NCBI RefSeq assembly: GCF_009914765.1
Contig: NZ_WYDS01000003.1
Location: 124,622-188,621 of the forward strand
Length of the DNA stretch: 64,000 bases
Reading direction: 5' to 3'
DNA from: Halodesulfovibrio sp. MK-HDV
Lineage (GTDB): Bacteria; Desulfobacterota; Desulfovibrionia; Desulfovibrionales; Desulfovibrionaceae
Shown here: piece after piece, positions 21,808-60,018 of the stretch
Position numbering within the stretch: position 1 is the first letter of the stretch
Layout of the letters: every line of letters begins with the position of its first letter
Notes under the pieces: generated by a model
Seen by the model: only the letters and a program-made list of their open reading frames with translations
Database searches by the model: none
What the model was told of the DNA's origin: nothing
Position numbers and translations under genes: made by a program

Positions 21808-22432
21808 GTCACGTTTTCCCTGTTCGATGCGCTGAAGGCGGGATTCCACGACAGAGCGTCTGTCCTTGGGACAGTTCTCTACCTCGTTATTGATGCAGGC
21901 CTTGCCTGCGTTACGGGTAGATTCTGTCGCGTAATCCTCTAAATATTCCTGAAAGGCAGGAGTGAATTCGGCAGACAATATTGCTGAATAATCCCCGTTT
22001 AGCCAGATCCATGAAGTGTTCGCCAGTTCTGCCAAGGCGATAGCATGCTGTACACCATGAAGGAAGATATCCTGCACCCACGATATCGTGGATAACTTCA
22101 TCTAAACTTCGGTTGTCACTGATGCAAAATTGTTGCACTTCGGGCCAGTCAAATTCAGGGTCACTGTACGCGCCAGGATAGGTGCGAGAGTCAACGCTAA
22201 TTTGCGATACACCGATATCAAGTATTTCTCGGCGTAACGCGGCTGATTCACGGGTACTCAAGATCAAACCAGTGTATGGCACGGCAAGGCGCAGGATGGC
22301 AACTATTCGTTTGAAGGTCATATGGTCAATGGGGCATGGGGGATTGTACGCCATTTTTGTATTGAGATCTGGTTCGAGTCGTGGAGAAGAGATTGTGTGC
22401 GGGCCTACAGAGTATGCTTTTTCCAATTCTTA
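21808..22432 (-). pseudogene. hydG: hydG remnant: C-terminal half, frameshifted
   Basis: Reading the minus strand from 22432, the translation (ELEKAYSVGPHTISSPRLEP...) matches the C-terminal half of HydG as encoded at 58610-60018. The frame breaks near 21985: homology resumes in another frame (FQEYLEDYATESTR) and ends at QGKRDLYL, where the original stop is lost and the frame runs on to 21676. At least two indels are needed near the break. The whole N-terminal half, including the radical SAM cysteines, is absent. The fragment sits where a hydG-hydE-hydF operon would place hydG. It cannot make an active tyrosine lyase. Confidence 0.88.
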
Positions 22433-35364: not shown

Positions 35365-36963
35365 ATGCGCTCACCAATACATATACTTAAATTTTCAGCA
35401 TTACTTGCGATTTGCGAAACCATGGAGCAGGCACTGGACCTTGAAGCTGCTCTTGATGGAGTACTCTGTATGCTTTCTGAAAAACTAAGTATGCAGCGGG
35501 CAACAGTAACCTTATACGATCCAGAAATTCAACAGTTAGCCATTAATGCATCGTATGGCCTAACGTTGGAGGAAAAAAGGCGTGGTGTGTATCGTCTTGA
35601 TGAAGGCGTTACCGGAAAAATATTTAGATCAAGCGAACCATTTTATGTTCCGGATATCAGTAATAACCCGCTTTTTTTAGATAAAACAGGTGCGCGAAAA
35701 CTCCAACGAAGAATGACATCCTTCATTGGTGTACCTATTGTTTTACATGGAGATCCTATTGGGGTTCTTAATGTGGATAGAGTTTTTGATGATCATATTT
35801 CTATTGAAGAAGATATAGATTTTTTGAAAATTGTAGCCACCCTTATTGGGCAATTTTTGAGCCTTAATAAAAAGGTTATGGAACGTGAAGCTGTCTTCAA
35901 GCGTGAAAATGCTTCTCTACGTTACCAGATTTCTCAGCAGAACAAGGGATTATTTATTGTTGGCAAAAGTCCAGCCATGATGGAAGTGCAGAGGCAGATG
36001 GAGAGGGTTTCCCCGACTCGGGCAACTGTACTACTTCTTGGTGAATCTGGCGTTGGTAAGACATTGATAGCACGTATAATTCATGATCTTTCTGACCGGA
36101 AAGGGCATCCTTTTGTGAAGATAAACTGTGCGTCCATTCCTGAAAATTTATTGGAAGCAGAATTTTTTGGGTATGAGAAAGGTGCTTTTACCGGTGCAGC
36201 ATCGAGTCGCCAAGGCCGTTTTGAAGAGGCAGATTGCGGAACCATATTTATGGATGAAATAGGGGAGCTTCCGTTAAATTTACAGGCTAAATTGCTTCGA
36301 GTACTACAGGAAAAAGAGTTTGAGCGGCTTGGTTCCAACAAAACTCGTACAGTCGATATTCGTATTATTGCAGCAACGAACAAAGATCTTGCGAAGCTCG
36401 TGGAGCAAAATGAATTTCGCCTAGATTTGTATTATCGGCTTAATATTTTTCCTATTGTCATTCCTGCTCTCTGCGAACGTAGGGAAGATGTCACAGGCCT
36501 ATTGAATCATTTCTTACGAAAAGCAGCGAACAATTATGGGCGTACTGTTTCACTCACTGCCGGTGCTTTGGATGCCCTTATCCAGTACGATTGGCCGGGG
36601 AACGTGCGTGAAATGGAAAACCTTATTGAACGCCTCGTAATAATGTCAGACTCTGATTATATTTCATTTGAATTTATTGCGCCTTTTTTGGGCTCGCTTG
36701 CGGTTGCTAGTGAAACAGGTGTTGTTGAAGTAGCTGATGTTTCACAAAAATTAGAGACTAATGAATCCTTGCCCCCTCAGCATACTTCTCTACAGAAATT
36801 AGAACAACATGAGATAATTCAAGCTTTAAGAAGTAATGACTGGATTCAATACAAAGCTGCTGCAACTTTGGGGCTTACTCCTCGCCAAATGGGGTATAGG
36901 GTAAAGCGCTATCATTTGGAGGAAGTTATTGCTGTTGGAAGAGCTCGACTTCGGAACAAGTAA
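35365..36963 (+). CDS. nifA: Nif-specific sigma-54 activator NifA
   Basis: Likely activator of the nif promoters in this window. 532 residues: GAF domain (about 15-170), AAA+ domain (about 195-430) with Walker A GESGVGKT, GAFTGA and IFMDEIGE, then a linker and a C-terminal Fis-type HTH (AAATLGLTPRQMGYRVKRY). The interdomain linker lacks the cysteine motif of oxygen-sensing rhizobial NifA. No nifL is nearby. ATG 35365 has a poor ribosome-binding site. It is convergent with nifB and shares a terminator with it. The identity rests on architecture and position in the nif cluster. Confidence 0.85.
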   Translation: MRSPIHILKFSALLAICETMEQALDLEAALDGVLCMLSEKLSMQRATVTLYDPEIQQLAINASYGLTLEEKRRGVYRLDEGVTGKIFRSSEPFYVPDISNNPLFLDKTGARKLQRRMTSFIGVPIVLHGDPIGVLNVDRVFDDHISIEEDIDFLKIVATLIGQFLSLNKKVMEREAVFKRENASLRYQISQQNKGLFIVGKSPAMMEVQRQMERVSPTRATVLLLGESGVGKTLIARIIHDLSDRKGHPFVKINCASIPENLLEAEFFGYEKGAFTGAASSRQGRFEEADCGTIFMDEIGELPLNLQAKLLRVLQEKEFERLGSNKTRTVDIRIIAATNKDLAKLVEQNEFRLDLYYRLNIFPIVIPALCERREDVTGLLNHFLRKAANNYGRTVSLTAGALDALIQYDWPGNVREMENLIERLVIMSDSDYISFEFIAPFLGSLAVASETGVVEVADVSQKLETNESLPPQHTSLQKLEQHEIIQALRSNDWIQYKAAATLGLTPRQMGYRVKRYHLEEVIAVGRARLRNK

Positions 36964-41302: not shown

Positions 41303-41758
41303 TTAGTGGTGTTTTGAGAGGCACACTAACTGCGTTTTGTTCCAGTCTCTTGCTTTATAGAAGCCTAAGGCCGTTGCATTGGTTGCATCAGCCAAAAGCT
41401 GAGAGCGTTTTGCTCTGTGCTTTTGAGCAAAACTGTTAATGCCCTGTAAAAGTAAACTTCCAATTCCAACATGTTGGTAATGGGGGTGCACAACGACATC
41501 TTCAACGAGTAGGGAGAAACCACCTTCCGCTGTTGAAACAAGCAATTGCCCTGTGCACATCCCCACATTTTTATTGTTCAACTCTGCCACAAGGACGCAT
41601 GAGGAAGGCGAATGTAGCAGGAGTTTTAATCCGTTCTGCTGTTTCACCGCATCGCTTTTAAAGTCGGCTTCAATGGTGAACAGTATCCGTAGAAGGTCAC
41701 ACAGCTGAGGAATATCGCCTTCGGTGGCTTCGCGTATGGTCACATGTGGCAGGTTCAT
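41303..41758 (-). CDS. GNAT-family N-acetyltransferase inside the nif operon
   Basis: 151 residues. The acetyl-CoA binding motif is VHPHYQHVGIGSLLLQGI (about residue 92-110), with the preceding beta strands LLVEDVV. It starts four bases after the ferredoxin stop and lies 50 bases before nifE, so it is co-transcribed with nitrogenase genes. A GNAT gene is known in some anaerobe nif operons near nifK/nifE. The substrate is unknown. Confidence 0.82.
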   Translation of the reverse strand: MNLPHVTIREATEGDIPQLCDLLRILFTIEADFKSDAVKQQNGLKLLLHSPSSCVLVAELNNKNVGMCTGQLLVSTAEGGFSLLVEDVVVHPHYQHVGIGSLLLQGINSFAQKHRAKRSQLLADATNATALGFYKARDWNKTQLVCLSKHH

Positions 41759-46005: not shown

Positions 46006-46866
<861 letters not shown>

Positions 46867-46885: not shown

Positions 46886-46901
46886 AGCGAAAGGTGTGCC
46901 A
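46886..46901 (-). promoter_or_regulatory. Sigma-54 promoter of the nifH operon
   Basis: Minus-strand TGGCAC ACCTT TCGC T: GG at -24 and GC at -12 correctly spaced. Predicts a start near 46875, about 39 bases before the nifH ATG. Confidence 0.85.
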
Positions 46902-46980
46902 AACAGACTTTTTAAATAAAAGTATTTTAAAAGCAGATAGTTATCTATTTTACGTACATTTTTGTGGATAGATTTGGATA

Positions 46981-47024
46981 TGTAGGAACCTACAAAAATG
47001 TCTTCAAAAATGTAGGAAGCTACA
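46981..47024. promoter_or_regulatory. Twin palindromic upstream activator sites
   Basis: TGTAGGAACCTACA (46981-46994) and TGTAGGAAGCTACA (47011-47024), 30 bp start to start and each followed by AAAAA on the plus strand. Their midpoint is about 115 bp from the nifH -12 and about 111 bp from the nifV -12. They are not the classic NifA site TGT-N10-ACA (here the gap is 8). Likely bind the activator of both promoters. Confidence 0.72.
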
Positions 47025-47098
47025 AAAAGGTATGCATAATTAGGGATGAGTTCTCTGTAGATAGGCAATAAGCGTATGATCTGCTGTAATATCTACGT

Positions 47099-47114
47099 TG
47101 GCACTATTAATGCT
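47099..47114 (+). promoter_or_regulatory. Sigma-54 promoter of the nifV operon
   Basis: TGGCAC TATTA ATGC T with correct GG/GC spacing. Predicts a start near 47125, about 64 bases before the nifV ATG. Confidence 0.75.
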
Positions 47115-47188: not shown

Positions 47189-48338
47189 ATGTTATTAGAT
47201 ACTACTTTAAGAGAAGGAGCTCAGCTTTTTGGTGCCTATTTCGATAGTAATACACGAAAAAAAAATATTTTCTGGCTTATTGCAGGTCGGTGTAGATGAA
47301 ATAGAGTTGGGATGGGTAGGGCAAAGTGATTTGGCGGATTTTGTAGCGTATGCTCGAAAGAAAAAAGTAACTGCGAAACTGAGCGTATGGTCGCCGTGCA
47401 GAGAGGCAGACATTCGTACCGCTGCGCAGTTGTCTGTAGATCGAGTGAACATTGGTGTTCCATCATCTGATCTGCATATAGAAAAAAGATTATCCACTCA
47501 GCGAGAAGCGTTATTACAATCTCTTGCAGAAAATATTGAAATCGCAAAAGAGTGCGGCATTTCTTATATTTCCGTCGGACTTGAAGACGTGTCGAGAGCT
47601 GACGAATTGTTCGCATTACGCATGGCATTAGTTGCAGAAAAACACGGAGCATCCCGTGTACGGCTTGCAGATTCCTTGGGACAGCTAACTCCGCTTGCTA
47701 TGGTGCGACTGATTAGCAGATTCCGTGATGCACTTAGTGTAGATATAGCTGTTCATTGTCATGACGATTTTGGCATGGCTACGGCAAATTCGATAACTGC
47801 TCTTCAGAGTGGCGCAGACTACGCTGATGTAAGTATTTTAGGTGTGGGTGAGCGTTCAGGAATAGCTGCAACGGAAGAGTTGGCGGCATATTTAGCAGTA
47901 AAACAAAATGCGACTGAGTATGCACCACGGGTACTTAAAGGACTGTGTGAATTTGTGGCTTCTGTAGCGCATGTTACGATTCCGCGCACAAAGTCTATTG
48001 TGGGGAAAGATGTTTTTGCTTGTGAATCAGGTTTGCATGTGCACGCGTTGAGTAAGTCTCCTGATTTATTTGAGCCATATGATCCAAAGGAAGTGGGCAT
48101 TACAAGAAAGATGCGTGTTGGAAGCAAGAGTGGCAAACGTGCTGTTTTGATAGCTCTTAATGAGTACGGGCTGGTGACTGACGATGGCTCTCTTGCTCAA
48201 AGAGATATTGAAGATGTGACCAAAGCTGTGAGTCAATTGTCCCGTAAGTTGGAGCGCCCGTTAACTGAAGATGAAGTTGGAGATGTGTGGAAGAGTGTCA
48301 TGTGTCGTGCAAAACCTCCTGTAACGGCTGTCTGTTAA
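47189..48338 (+). CDS. nifV: Homocitrate synthase NifV, with apparent frameshift in A9 tract
   Basis: Makes homocitrate from acetyl-CoA and 2-oxoglutarate for FeMo-co. ATG 47189 has AGAGGGAAG upstream and encodes MLLDTTLREGAQLFGAYFD, the required catalytic start. The frame then runs into A9 (47257-47265); eight A residues would continue into IFSGLLQVGVDEIELGW and a 382-residue protein of normal length. As written, the upstream frame soon fails and the main frame lacks DTTLREG. Other family blocks are intact (VHCHDDFGMATANS, SGIAATEEL, FACESGLHVHAL). Either a sequencing error, a lesion, or slippage at the A tract. It heads nifV-modA-modB-unknown. Confidence 0.85.
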
Positions 48339-48370: not shown

Positions 48371-49123
48371 ATGCTAAAACAAGCTCTTACTTATAACACA
48401 ATATGCATGTTGATCCTTATTGCTGCGGTGCACTTAAATGCAGCAGAAAGAGTGGATAACGTATCTATAGCTTGTTCGGCTAACTTCACAGACACGCTTA
48501 AAAAATTAAAGGTTGAGTATGAGAAGACAGGAGCAAAAGTTACGTGTGTCTTCGGGGCGACAGGGATGTTGTACGGACAAATCATAAATGGTGCGGCGTA
48601 TGACCTTTTCTTAGCAGCGGATGAAAAGCGTCCTGCCATGTTATTTGATAAAAATCTTGCGCTGGAACCAAAGATCTACGCCAAGGGCACCGCGGTCTTA
48701 TGGTCTATGAAAAAAGAGCTGAAGAGGCTGCCTACATGGGAAGATGTGCTTGTTTCTTCTGACCTGATGCATTTAGGGATTTCGAATCCAAAGACCGCTC
48801 CATATGGAGCAACTGCGGAAGCCTCGTTGCGGGCGGCAGGTTTGTACTCAAAAGTTGAGTCGAAAATTGCTTTTGGAAAAAGTGTCGGCACGGCATTCCA
48901 GTATGGATATACCGGTGTAGCAGACGCGACATTTATTGCATTATCGCAAGCTCTTTCAGAGAAAGGCATGCATGGAAAATATTGGGGTATCCCAAAGTCT
49001 GCAAAAATTAATCAGGCTGCTTGCGTCATACGGTCTGGGAATGTTGAAGGTGCTCAGAAATTTCTTGAATGGATTGAAGGTAAAGAAGCTCGTTCTATCT
49101 TAAGGCGGTACGGTTATGAGTAG
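48371..49123 (+). CDS. modA: Molybdate ABC transporter substrate-binding protein ModA
   Basis: 250 residues with a signal peptide ending near LNAA. The mature start VSIACSANFTDTLKKL and GATGMLYGQIINGAAYDLFLAADEKRP follow the ModA pattern (Ser in the SANF and TGML loops contact the oxyanion), and ISNPKTAPYGATAEASL and TGVADATFIALSQ are also conserved. GAGGTGA precedes ATG 48371. It would bind molybdate (or tungstate) for nitrogenase cofactor and the formate dehydrogenase. It overlaps modB by eight bases. Confidence 0.9.
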   Translation: MLKQALTYNTICMLILIAAVHLNAAERVDNVSIACSANFTDTLKKLKVEYEKTGAKVTCVFGATGMLYGQIINGAAYDLFLAADEKRPAMLFDKNLALEPKIYAKGTAVLWSMKKELKRLPTWEDVLVSSDLMHLGISNPKTAPYGATAEASLRAAGLYSKVESKIAFGKSVGTAFQYGYTGVADATFIALSQALSEKGMHGKYWGIPKSAKINQAACVIRSGNVEGAQKFLEWIEGKEARSILRRYGYE

Positions 49124-49871
49124 TGAAGATATTAGCGCCCTATGGGTAACGTTCAAGCTTGCGACAATTGTTATGATTGTGTTGCTGGTGGTATGTGTAC
49201 CTATTGCATACTTGCTGGCAAAAGGCAGGTTTCGGGGAAAACGTTACATTCAGGCCGCCTGTAACTTGCCAATGGTATTGCCTCCAACCGTACTAGGTTT
49301 CGGGCTTTTGTTTGTAATGGGACCTTATTCTGTGATTGGCAGTTTTTGGAAATCACTAACAGGCTCTTCTTTAACGTTCTCTTTTTTCGGACTTGTTCTT
49401 GGTTCGTTATTGTACAGTTTGCCCTTTGGGATCTTACCCATGCAAGCAGCGTTCGAAAAAATAGATGATGACCTCATTGAGGCAGGGCGTGCTTTAGGGC
49501 TCTCAAATCTTCAAACGTTCTTTTACGTTGTGCTTCCTAATAGTCGTGGTGGCCTTGCCGCGTCTGCTGCTCTTATTTTTGCCCATACAGTGGGAGAATT
49601 TGGTGTTGCGCTGATGATTGGTGGTTCTATTCCTCATGAAACCCGCGTGATATCAATCGCTATTTTTGAACATACAGAAAGCATTAACTACGAGGCGGCG
49701 GCGATACTTTCTTTGGTCTTACTTGTTGTCAGCTATATCTCGCTAGTTTTCATAGGGAAAAGCTCAACAGGTGAGGTTGGAGGACATGTGCGGGCTCGCA
49801 ACAACAATACTAAAAAAAAGGAATTTCCTTATGGCACCGTGCAAACCGTATGCATCAGAACTTTCGACTAG
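49116..49871 (+). CDS. modB: Molybdate ABC transporter permease ModB
   Basis: 251 residues, five to six membrane helices. The ATPase-contact EAA loop reads EAGRALGLSNLQTFFYVVLPNSRGGL. LPMVLPPTVLGFGLL and THTVGEFGVALMIGG-type segments are present. The C-terminal 35 residues after the last helix are polar and longer than usual, and overlap the start of the next gene by 41 bases. No modC ATPase gene follows, so the transporter must borrow or encode its ATPase elsewhere. Confidence 0.9.
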   Translation: MSSEDISALWVTFKLATIVMIVLLVVCVPIAYLLAKGRFRGKRYIQAACNLPMVLPPTVLGFGLLFVMGPYSVIGSFWKSLTGSSLTFSFFGLVLGSLLYSLPFGILPMQAAFEKIDDDLIEAGRALGLSNLQTFFYVVLPNSRGGLAASAALIFAHTVGEFGVALMIGGSIPHETRVISIAIFEHTESINYEAAAILSLVLLVVSYISLVFIGKSSTGEVGGHVRARNNNTKKKEFPYGTVQTVCIRTFD

Positions 49872-50784
49872 TGAAAATATTGAGCTGTACGAAAATGGAA
49901 GCGTTGCCGCGTGTTCGATTGTAGCACCGTGCATAGTTGAAACGCAGGCTGGAAAGCTTACTCCCCAATATTCAACAGATGATTTGCGTAAGAAAACTCT
50001 TCAAGCGGTTTCATTTTACCGGAGCGGGGCATTGCGCTCCTTACCGTTAGAGACTCAGAGTCCTGTACTCACTCCGATAGGTGAGATAGCTGCTGAACTA
50101 GTCACTTTTTATGAGAGTGGCGCAGTGAAAAGGGTGTTCCCCCTTAATGGCAAACTTTCCGGTTATTGGGGAGAGGACGACGAGATGTCTCTTTCAGAGA
50201 ACCTTACTATAGAGATAGCAGGAAGCAATCTAACAGCACGATGTATCAATATCAGTTTTTATGAGCATGGAAGCGTGGAAAGCATTACTCTTTGGCCTAA
50301 GGAAAATGTCTTACTAAAGACCCCTATTGGGGAAATGCAAATTCGTACAGGGATTAAATTCAGCCATACTGGTAAAATTCTTTCCGTAGAGCCTGCCGTT
50401 CCTACTTCAGTAGAAACATCAATTGGAAAAGTAACTGCATACGATAATGATGTAGTCGGAATTATAGGTGACAATAATTCGTTAGTTTTCTCTGAAAATG
50501 GAGACCTTCGCAGCATCACAACTATGCATACAAAAGTTGTTGCTACAGCTTTAAACGGAAAGAAAAGTGAAGTTTCCCCAGCGACGCGCGAAAGTTTATG
50601 CGGGAATGAAGATAAAGAGTTCGTTCCTATGGTGATAGAATTTTTATCGAAAGGAATACGGGTAACAACCGAGCCCGGTGGTTCGTCGCGAACCTTTAGT
50701 TATGACGAGTATGACATTACGTCACAAACATATCATTCTGAGTTGGAAACAGCTTTGGGGTTGGCAAGCTCTTGTTCGATGTAA
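49831..50784 (+). CDS. Unknown repeat protein in the nifV-mod operon
   Basis: 317 residues from ATG 49831 (AAGGAA upstream), beginning MAPCKPYASEL. No signal peptide or membrane helix. It contains six degenerate repeats of about 35-55 residues, each with the core [IVL]xFYxxGxxxS[IL] (for example NIELYENGSVAACSI, AVSFYRSGALRSLPL, LVTFYESGAVKRVFPL, NISFYEHGSVESITL), often followed by T-P-I-G-E. The core recalls MORN_2/YwqK repeats but the spacers are longer. It overlaps modB and so is co-expressed with nifV, modA and modB. A role in Mo handling or FeMo-co supply is inference from context. I do not recognise a named family. Confidence 0.75.
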   Translation: MAPCKPYASELSTSENIELYENGSVAACSIVAPCIVETQAGKLTPQYSTDDLRKKTLQAVSFYRSGALRSLPLETQSPVLTPIGEIAAELVTFYESGAVKRVFPLNGKLSGYWGEDDEMSLSENLTIEIAGSNLTARCINISFYEHGSVESITLWPKENVLLKTPIGEMQIRTGIKFSHTGKILSVEPAVPTSVETSIGKVTAYDNDVVGIIGDNNSLVFSENGDLRSITTMHTKVVATALNGKKSEVSPATRESLCGNEDKEFVPMVIEFLSKGIRVTTEPGGSSRTFSYDEYDITSQTYHSELETALGLASSCSM

Positions 50785-58609: not shown

Positions 58610-60018
58610 ATGAAACTCGATACAACGGGTCTTGATAATTTTATTGATGAAAAGGCGATATGGGGCATTGTAAATCAAAACGCCGATGCATCCACAGGTC
58701 GCGTTCAGGAAATCCTCGATAAGGCGCTTGAAGCTAAAGGGCTGACTCTCGAAGAAACAGCTTGTTTGTTACAGACTGAAGATCCGGAATTAAATGAGGC
58801 AATTCTGGAAACTGCCGGTAAGGTCAAGCAAGCCATCTACGGTAAGCGTGTCGTCCTTTTTGCCCTCTCTACATTACAAACGAATGTAGTAACCGCTGTG
58901 CATATTGCGGATTCAAGGACACTAACACTGAACTCGTTCGCCGAACTCTCAATCCTGCTGAAATAAAAAAAGAGGTCAGCATTCTTGAGGATATCGGTCA
59001 TAAGCGTTTGTTGTTGGTGTACGGCGAACATCCTAAATTTGGTGGAGACTGGATCGCGGAGACCGTGCGTACTGTTTACGAAACAGTTTCTGAAAAGAGT
59101 GGCGAGATTCGGCGCGTTAACATCAACTGTGCTCCGTTGGACGTTGAAGGTTTCCGTAAATTGCATGAGGTGGGTATTGGAACGTACCAATGTTTTCAGG
59201 AGACCTACCATTCCCAGACATATGCAGAACTTCATCCACGAGGTCATAAAAAGCATTTCCTGTGGAGACTCCATGCGATGCATAGAGCGATGGAGGCCGG
59301 AATTGATGATGTAGGCATGGGGGCGTTACTTGGTTTGTATGACTACCGTTTCGATATCATTGCATTACTAGCTCACGCAGCAGAGTTGGAAAAACGTTTT
59401 GGTGTCGGGCCGCATACGCTGTCTTTCCCTCGTCTTGAGCCTGCTTTGAATTCAGATATTGCTTTTAATCCTCCATATCCGATTTCAGACACCCAGTTTA
59501 AGCGTCTTGTGGCTGTGTTACGTCTTGCGGTTCCTTTTACCGGACTGATCCTGAGCACTCGGGAAAACAAGGAGATGCGACGCGAGCTTCTTGATATAGG
59601 TGTTTCGCAGCTTAGTGCGGGTTCCCGCACATACCCAGGTGCGTATTCTGATCCGAATTTTGATCGCCCTGAAGTCCAACAGTTTTGTGTTGGTGATAAT
59701 CGTAATCTTGATGAAGTTATTCAAGAAATTGTGCAGCACGGATATACTCCATCATGGTGTACTGCTTGCTACCGCGAGGGAAGAACGGGCGAAGAATTTA
59801 TGAAGTTGGCTAAAAACGGCTTTATCCAGAATTTTTGTCGTCCCAATGCACTACTTACGTTCAACGAGTACTTACAGGACTACGCTAGCGAAGCTACTCG
59901 CGATGTTGGACACAAGCTTATTCAAGACGAAGTAGAAAAGGGCTCGGGAACGTGCCAAAAGAATTTGGAAGACCGTTTGTCGCGTATCGAACAGGGTGAA
60001 CGGGATTTGTATTTGTAG
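58610..60018 (+). CDS. hydG: [FeFe]-hydrogenase maturase HydG, with apparent frameshift
   Basis: Radical SAM tyrosine lyase that supplies CO and CN ligands for the H-cluster. ATG 58610 (GGAG upstream) gives MKLDTTGLDNFIDEKAIWGI. At 58862-58867 the frame reads FALST; stepping back one base after GCC gives FAPLYITNECSNRCAYCGF with the CxxxCxxC motif, then a clean frame to 60018 including CNTAC-like WCTACYREGRTG for the auxiliary cluster. A restored gene has 469 residues, the normal HydG length. One missing C in the GCCC run explains it. Real lesion, recoding or sequencing error cannot be told apart here. Confidence 0.87.

Follow-up and report, generated by a model that had tools for sequence, protein, structure and literature searches.

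A conserved half-site array midway between divergent σ54 promoters of nifH and nifV, a candidate shared activator element in Desulfovibrionaceae

The region between nifH and nifV of Halodesulfovibrio sp. MK-HDV lies in a stretch of 64,000 nucleotides of contig NZ_WYDS01000003.1, which was analysed at its full length and is called the window here. We found that two palindromes in this region belong to a longer array of TGTAG and CTACA half-sites placed between two divergent σ54 promoters. Comparison among relatives indicates that the array is a real, conserved regulatory element, a variant of the NifA/AnfA enhancer type. Our preferred reading, to which we assign a probability of about 0.72, is that one upstream activator element in this region serves both promoters, and that on it a NifA-family protein encoded in the same window (35365–36963) would act from half-site dimers. 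The features are collected in Table 1.

Table 1. Features of the nif region and the candidate activator gene, in window coordinates
Feature	Position	Strand	Basis
Candidate activator: GAF, AAA+ σ54 domain with GAFTGA, Fis-type HTH	35365–36963	+	Pfam, translation
nifH, ATG at 46836, first gene of the nif operon	46006–46836	-	ORFs, relatives
σ54 promoter of the nifH operon, TGGCACACCTTTCGC	46887–46901	-	sequence, 24/12 spacing
Facing palindrome, nifH-proximal, TGTAGGAACCTACA	46981–46994		exact TGTAG-N4-CTACA match
Everted unit CTACA-AAAA-TGTCT, imperfect right half, between the palindromes	46990–47003		unit defined by comparison
Everted unit CTTCA-AAAA-TGTAG, imperfect left half, between the palindromes	47002–47015		unit defined by comparison
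Facing palindrome, nifV-proximal, TGTAGGAAGCTACA	47011–47024		exact TGTAG-N4-CTACA match
TAC-N6-GTA, exact match to the AnfA-site consensus (available part of PMC7294313)	47021–47032		sequence
σ54 promoter of nifV, TGGCACTATTAATGC	47099–47113	+	sequence, 24/12 spacing
nifV (homocitrate synthase), reading frame broken	47189–48338	+	ORFs, Pfam
modA-like and modB-like genes downstream of nifV	48371–49871	+	ORFs, Pfam SBP_bac_11, BPD_transp_1

Both promoters carry GG and GC doublets at −24 and −12 with the fixed spacing of σ54 promoters, in agreement with the first-pass annotation, which had proposed divergent promoters of this class. The nifH −12 element reads TCGC, not TTGC, and the promoter is still recognized as σ54-type in our promoter test. 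The two −24 elements are 198 bp apart (46901 and 47099). Two copies of TGTAG-N4-CTACA 30 bp apart had also been described; both are exact and lie mid-gap between the promoters, with their common midpoint (47002.5) 2.5 bp from that of the promoters (47000). The midpoint of the palindromes is 115 bp from the nifH −12 GC, as had been given, and 110 bp from that of nifV, for which about 111 bp had been claimed. Extra half-sites flank the palindromes. Because the outer ones are weak or degenerate in the window, only the two palindromes stand out there; both are perfect, and the everted units, in which the half-sites point the other way, are mostly imperfect. The single exact copy of TAC-N6-GTA has an outer half that is degenerate relative to CTACA/TGTAG.

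Lone palindromes occur at close to chance frequency: three matches with at most one mismatch were found in the window versus 1.28 expected, and 8 of 100 shuffles reached three. The exact, closely set pair is the unusual part. Exact copies of the palindrome were counted 11 times across the whole genome, compared with 3 for a backwards control. A wider palindrome regulon in this genome was rejected, because the other nine exact palindromes are all single and lie in or beside ORFs that are non-nif by eye; at one of them (L014), a σ54-like match lies 60 bp away, inside an ORF. The pattern CTACR-N4-YGTAG showed no genome-wide enrichment: it matched 25 places, none of them the nif site, and its control matched 28.

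The nif operon runs leftwards from nifH to about 37166, and we presume the identities of the genes downstream of nifH from familiar nif gene names and the annotated gene order of D. vulgaris. An ORF that resembles a GNAT acetyltransferase by eye (41303–41758) lies inside the operon, between the nifK-like and nifE-like genes. The nifV frame, which begins with the ATG at 47189, breaks at a run of nine A residues (47257–47265), and the remainder is in the frame of ORF 47229–48338. In the nearest relative (L096), the run of A residues is interrupted; the break here is either a sequencing error or a real lesion. We infer the mod gene names and the co-transcription of these genes with nifV. No modC-like ATPase was seen by eye among the next ORFs after the modA-like and modB-like genes (48371–50784), and ORF 49771–50784, which overlaps modB, has no Pfam match. 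Elsewhere in the window, a short ORF (21911–22426) beside HydE/HydF-like ORFs resembles by eye part of ORF 59008–60018. Both look like HydG, and the short ORF is probably a partial second copy.

A strict form of the pattern, in which a palindrome is followed after 15–19 bases by TGTAG, was found in 5 of the 10 genomes of the genus, always just upstream of nifH; a control pattern gave no match in the same ten. The five are among the six nifH-bearing genomes (the exception is G021), and none of the four genomes without nifH has a match. For the wider family, we took promoters from 70 of the 115 nifH-bearing genomes; one of the 70 (L133) had no upstream sequence. We divided these by genus, after the alignments had been inspected, into a core group A (40 promoters, 8 genera), group B (19 promoters from twelve other genera) and group C (10 promoters from genera g29 and g38). 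A further 80 nifH-similar loci were sorted as follows: 8 were excluded because their record titles, or a promoter already present among the family genomes, marked them as family members, 17 formed group E (10 of them titled Desulfobulbus or Desulfobulbaceae), 16 from mixed phyla formed group F, and the other 39 had no strict σ54 match within 200 bp or not enough upstream sequence. Counts of promoters are not independent observations, because the promoters are related.

The first-pass annotation had proposed looking for the palindromes upstream of nifH in relatives, and this check came out in its favour. A pair of palindromes (at most 2 of 10 bases off, 26–36 bp apart) was present in 26 of the 40 core promoters and in none of 50 shuffle sets. 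The spacing within these pairs, 31 bp in 19 of the 26, 32 bp in four, 30 bp in two and 34 bp in one, fits the proposal that three helical turns separate the palindromes.

We then aligned 49 family promoters and counted half-sites with at most one mismatch at exact offsets from the first T of the TGG of the nifH −24 element. CTACA was found at −133 in 18 promoters, TGTAG at −124 in 24, CTACA at −115 in 25, TGTAG at −106 in 11, TGTAG at −93 in 9, CTACA at −84 in 21 and TGTAG at −74 in 20; at every one of these offsets other than −133 and −74, a further six promoters had the half-site one base further. In core-group promoters, the palindromes are part of an alternating TGTAG/CTACA array, with neighbouring half-sites mostly 9–10 bp apart on each side. 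Among 28 promoters with 202–204 bp between the −24 elements, mean pairwise identity was 0.38 in the spacer from the array to the nifH −24, 0.51–0.69 in the half-sites and 0.79 in the −24/−12 box.

An alternating array can be divided into dimer sites in two ways, and we counted both kinds of half-site pair in 110 bp around it. Facing TGT-N8-ACA pairs occurred in 36 of 40 group A promoters, 2 of 19 in B, 3 of 10 in C (all three of the g38 promoters), 1 of 17 in E and 1 of 16 in F. Other facing gaps were found in other lineages: N10 in 7/40, 0/19, 0/10, 12/17 and 2/16 of groups A, B, C, E and F, N13 in 3/40, 8/19, 0/10, 0/17 and 2/16, and a gap of 7 in 5 of 7 promoters of g29. By contrast, everted ACA-N4-TGT occurred in 29/40, 12/19, 4/10, 9/17 and 9/16 (shuffle means 0.4–2.4), and everted TAC-N6-GTA in 28/40, 5/19, 4/10, 3/17 and 9/16 (shuffle means 0.1–1.3). 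Everted N4 was enriched in four of the five judgeable groups of a first count and in the groups of a later count. By genera within the family, ACA-N4-TGT was found in 15 of 22, TAC-N6-GTA in 12 of 22 and facing N8 in 8 of 22. The facing gap thus varies by lineage, and the everted unit, which recurs in more genera, is the commoner element. We tentatively favour it as the putative dimer site, although in the alignment of 49 an additional base is usual in the everted unit closest to the nifH promoter. The non-canonical N8 palindrome proposed as a NifA site is only partly borne out: facing N8 is mostly confined to one clade, and everted ACA-N4-TGT is distributed more widely.

The strongest alternative, which we consider possible but clearly short of even odds, is that the operator is the facing TGTAG-N4-CTACA, that the NifA-like dimer of this clade prefers N8 over N10 and that the flanking half-sites are secondary. 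In group A and in the window, facing pairs are kept at least as well as everted ones. Facing N8 exceeds everted N4 among core promoters (36 versus 29 of 40, against shuffle means of 2.1–2.4), the window palindromes are the perfect units, and the two best-kept half-sites of the 49 aligned promoters form a facing pair. Moreover, the activators of the core clade have an extra basic C-terminal tail after the HTH (GRAxLR-like; 32 of 40, compared with 1 of 19 for group B and none of the 10 for group C), which could alter dimer geometry. Against this reading, the facing gap shifts with lineage (8, 10 or 13, and 7 in g29) while everted N4 is enriched across groups, and the everted TAC-N6-GTA is the experimentally shown site of a related activator, as described in the available part of PMC7294313.

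The layout of the two promoters around the array bears on whether one element serves both. It is well known that two divergent σ54 promoters may draw on common activator sites. Each of the 40 group A stretches has nifV in divergent orientation to nifH, and a divergent −24 element lies within 150–260 bp in 38 of them, at 203 bp in 18, 202 bp in seven, 204 bp in three and 192–226 bp in the other ten; the single 226-bp case may be chance. When mirrored half-site pairs were scored about each centre from −40 to +40 bp (161 centres, 38 promoters), the best centre was the midpoint of the two −24 elements, with 62 pairs, compared with 45 at the best local palindrome centre and a mean of 13.4 over all centres. 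By a correlation measure on 23 promoters, one palindrome's centre scored above the midpoint (0.72 versus 0.67). The −106 half-site also lacks a mirror partner. A spacer kept in length without being kept in sequence, together with a dyad at the midpoint, is what would be expected of an enhancer common to both promoters, so the comparison supports the earlier suggestion that one enhancer serves both operons.

This layout is not universal. In g29, both promoters are present in 7 of 7 cases (these are the 7 of 10 in group C with a divergent −24, at 193–195 bp), but there is no dyad at the midpoint. D. vulgaris has the same units, but with about 360 bp between the nifH −24 and the divergent −24-like match. 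Group B has no divergent −24 match at 150–260 bp (0 of 19), including the 8 of 19 fetched stretches in which nifV is divergent. These three cases weaken a two-way link between the symmetric array and divergent nifV, which we had considered. A role for IHF-like sites was considered and rejected, since just 2 of 40 promoters have one within 70 bp upstream of the nifH −24.

It is unlikely that no enhancer is shared and that each palindrome serves one promoter, the symmetry arising from two copies of an ancestral element. There are two palindromes for two promoters, and σ54 promoters often have their own activator site. However, each palindrome is within activator range of both promoters, the distance between the −24 elements is kept although the spacers diverge, and group B promoters often still have two tandem units where a divergent −24 is lacking at 150–260 bp. 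That the repeats are a bidirectional hairpin, a terminator or an unrelated repressor's operator is very improbable: a 66-nt stretch of either strand folds better than its shuffles (z = −2.65 and −2.85), but the repeats themselves give such a fold, the searches returned neither a terminator-like site nor an Rfam match at the gathering threshold, and relatives keep the half-sites in place with respect to the −24, as an activator element would.

The likely activator of the array is the GAF–AAA+–Fis protein, whose gene adjoins a nifB-like gene. It belongs to the σ54 enhancer-binding protein class by its Pfam matches (PF00158 and PF02954) and the GAFTGA motif in its translation. Against the NifA equivalog TIGR01817 it scores 513.4 bits, its highest value among the listed NCBIfam models but below the cut-off of 528.85; for the homologue in D. 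vulgaris the score is 536.5 bits. Among 199 family genomes, with orthologues taken at E < 1e-150 and nifH at E < 1e-80, 97 have both an orthologue and nifH, 18 have nifH only, 3 have the orthologue only and 81 have neither. The orthologue is thus present in 97 of 115 nifH genomes, and nifH in 97 of 100 orthologue genomes. Each of the 18 nifH-only genomes has a nifH at most 75% identical, and the three orthologue-only genomes are 67–84% complete. In one genome, an activator orthologue just upstream of nifH contains an in-frame TAG (G051:C1:3345262-3346797). AnfA and VnfA proteins are marked by a cysteine motif in the GAF domain; the protein here has Cys 17 and Cys 35, of which the second is absent in G104.

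By eye, the recognition helix resembles those of NifA and of Desulfobulbaceae homologues, in a comparison from which six rows in wrong frames were left out (L158, L168, L182, L195, L196 and L209; two family ones were redone). The suggestion that this NifA has a different recognition sequence is partly supported: the difference lies in the arrangement of the half-sites, whereas the TGT/ACA half-site itself matches that of NifA, as does the recognition helix by eye. Fourteen nifH promoters from family genomes without a close orthologue also contain TAC-N6-GTA (8 of 14) or ACA-N4-TGT (9 of 14), counted in 310-bp stretches without shuffles. The everted unit is thus not strictly tied to this protein, which weakens the strict unit–activator link that we had considered, and other activators may use everted units too.

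On the reading of a shared element, several dimers of the NifA-family protein would bind next to one another on the TGTAG/CTACA half-sites, and their complex would loop from the middle to reach σ54 RNA polymerase at both nifH and nifV. Because the core-group array is near mirror-symmetric about the midpoint of the −24 elements, each promoter would have the activator at about equal distance and helical phase. Such equal geometry would coordinate the nitrogenase genes with homocitrate synthase and, probably, with molybdate uptake. A more specific form, which we hold tentatively and at somewhat less than even odds, is that core Desulfovibrionaceae have a centred, dyad-symmetric enhancer of at least six half-sites that carries one assembly, perhaps a hexamer on three dimers, and that the lineage's spacing goes with the C-terminal tail. 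The array offers candidate activator sites for the nitrogen-fixation genes of sulfate reducers, and a natural, conserved case of what is probably one enhancer midway between two σ54 promoters at a kept distance. This layout makes promoter sharing or competition and helical phasing directly testable.

The array shares with the canonical NifA upstream sequence, TGT-N10-ACA, its TGT/ACA half-sites, −24/−12 promoters and a position about 100 bp upstream, and the recognition helix of the candidate activator is similar by eye. The canonical site itself was rejected as the element here, being absent from the 600 bp upstream of nifH. By contrast, among 14 nifH regions of proteobacterial plasmids, selected from 270 records, 13 contain TGT-N10-ACA, 2 contain ACA-N4-TGT and none contains TAC-N6-GTA; 7 of the 14 had a σ54 match when anchored, and the count was therefore repeated without the anchor.

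A further related element is the AnfA site of Rhodobacter capsulatus, TAC-N6-GTA, which was shown by mutation and gel shift and is contained in CTACA-N4-TGTAG; two such sites lie upstream of a σ54 promoter there, and both are needed for full activity (available passages of PMC7294313). The systems differ in that the AnfA sites serve the anfH promoter of the Fe nitrogenase, whereas those described here lie at nifH and nifV of the Mo nitrogenase, and in that the HTH here is NifA-like by eye. Within our own sample, only one of six putative anfH promoters has TAC-N6-GTA (putative anfH being a second nifH-like copy, with a second-type activator nearby in most).

In D. vulgaris, DVUA0143 was predicted to control DVUA0015–DVUA0007 and DVUA0016, and a candidate motif was reported upstream of nitrogenase operons in five Desulfovibrionales genomes (PMC4641369, available passages). 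The regulator is of the same kind, a GAF/PAS-class one-component σ54 activator with the nitrogenase operon DVUA0015–0007 and DVUA0016 as predicted targets, so the idea of an activator acting on nifH and nifV has been partly in print since 2015; the passages available give neither motif letters nor a symmetric or fixed-distance layout (PMC4641369). On the D. vulgaris DP4 plasmid, a homocitrate synthase gene and nifH diverge, and an activator with 57.8% identity to the protein described here is encoded. This activator is probably DVUA0143, which would be the D. vulgaris orthologue, and DVUA0016 is probably nifV. At the DP4 locus (L205, 4229–4997), a long nifV–nifH gap contains the same alternating units, CTACAAAAATGTAGCGTCCTACA, at a distance of about 110 bp on the upstream side of the nifH −24. 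A literature search that reached few subscription papers found only predictions for nif control in sulfate reducers and no published report of the array geometry, the available part of PMC12316311 included. The midpoint layout is the most interesting feature of the array: the kind of switch is known, and its layout, as far as this search reached, is new.
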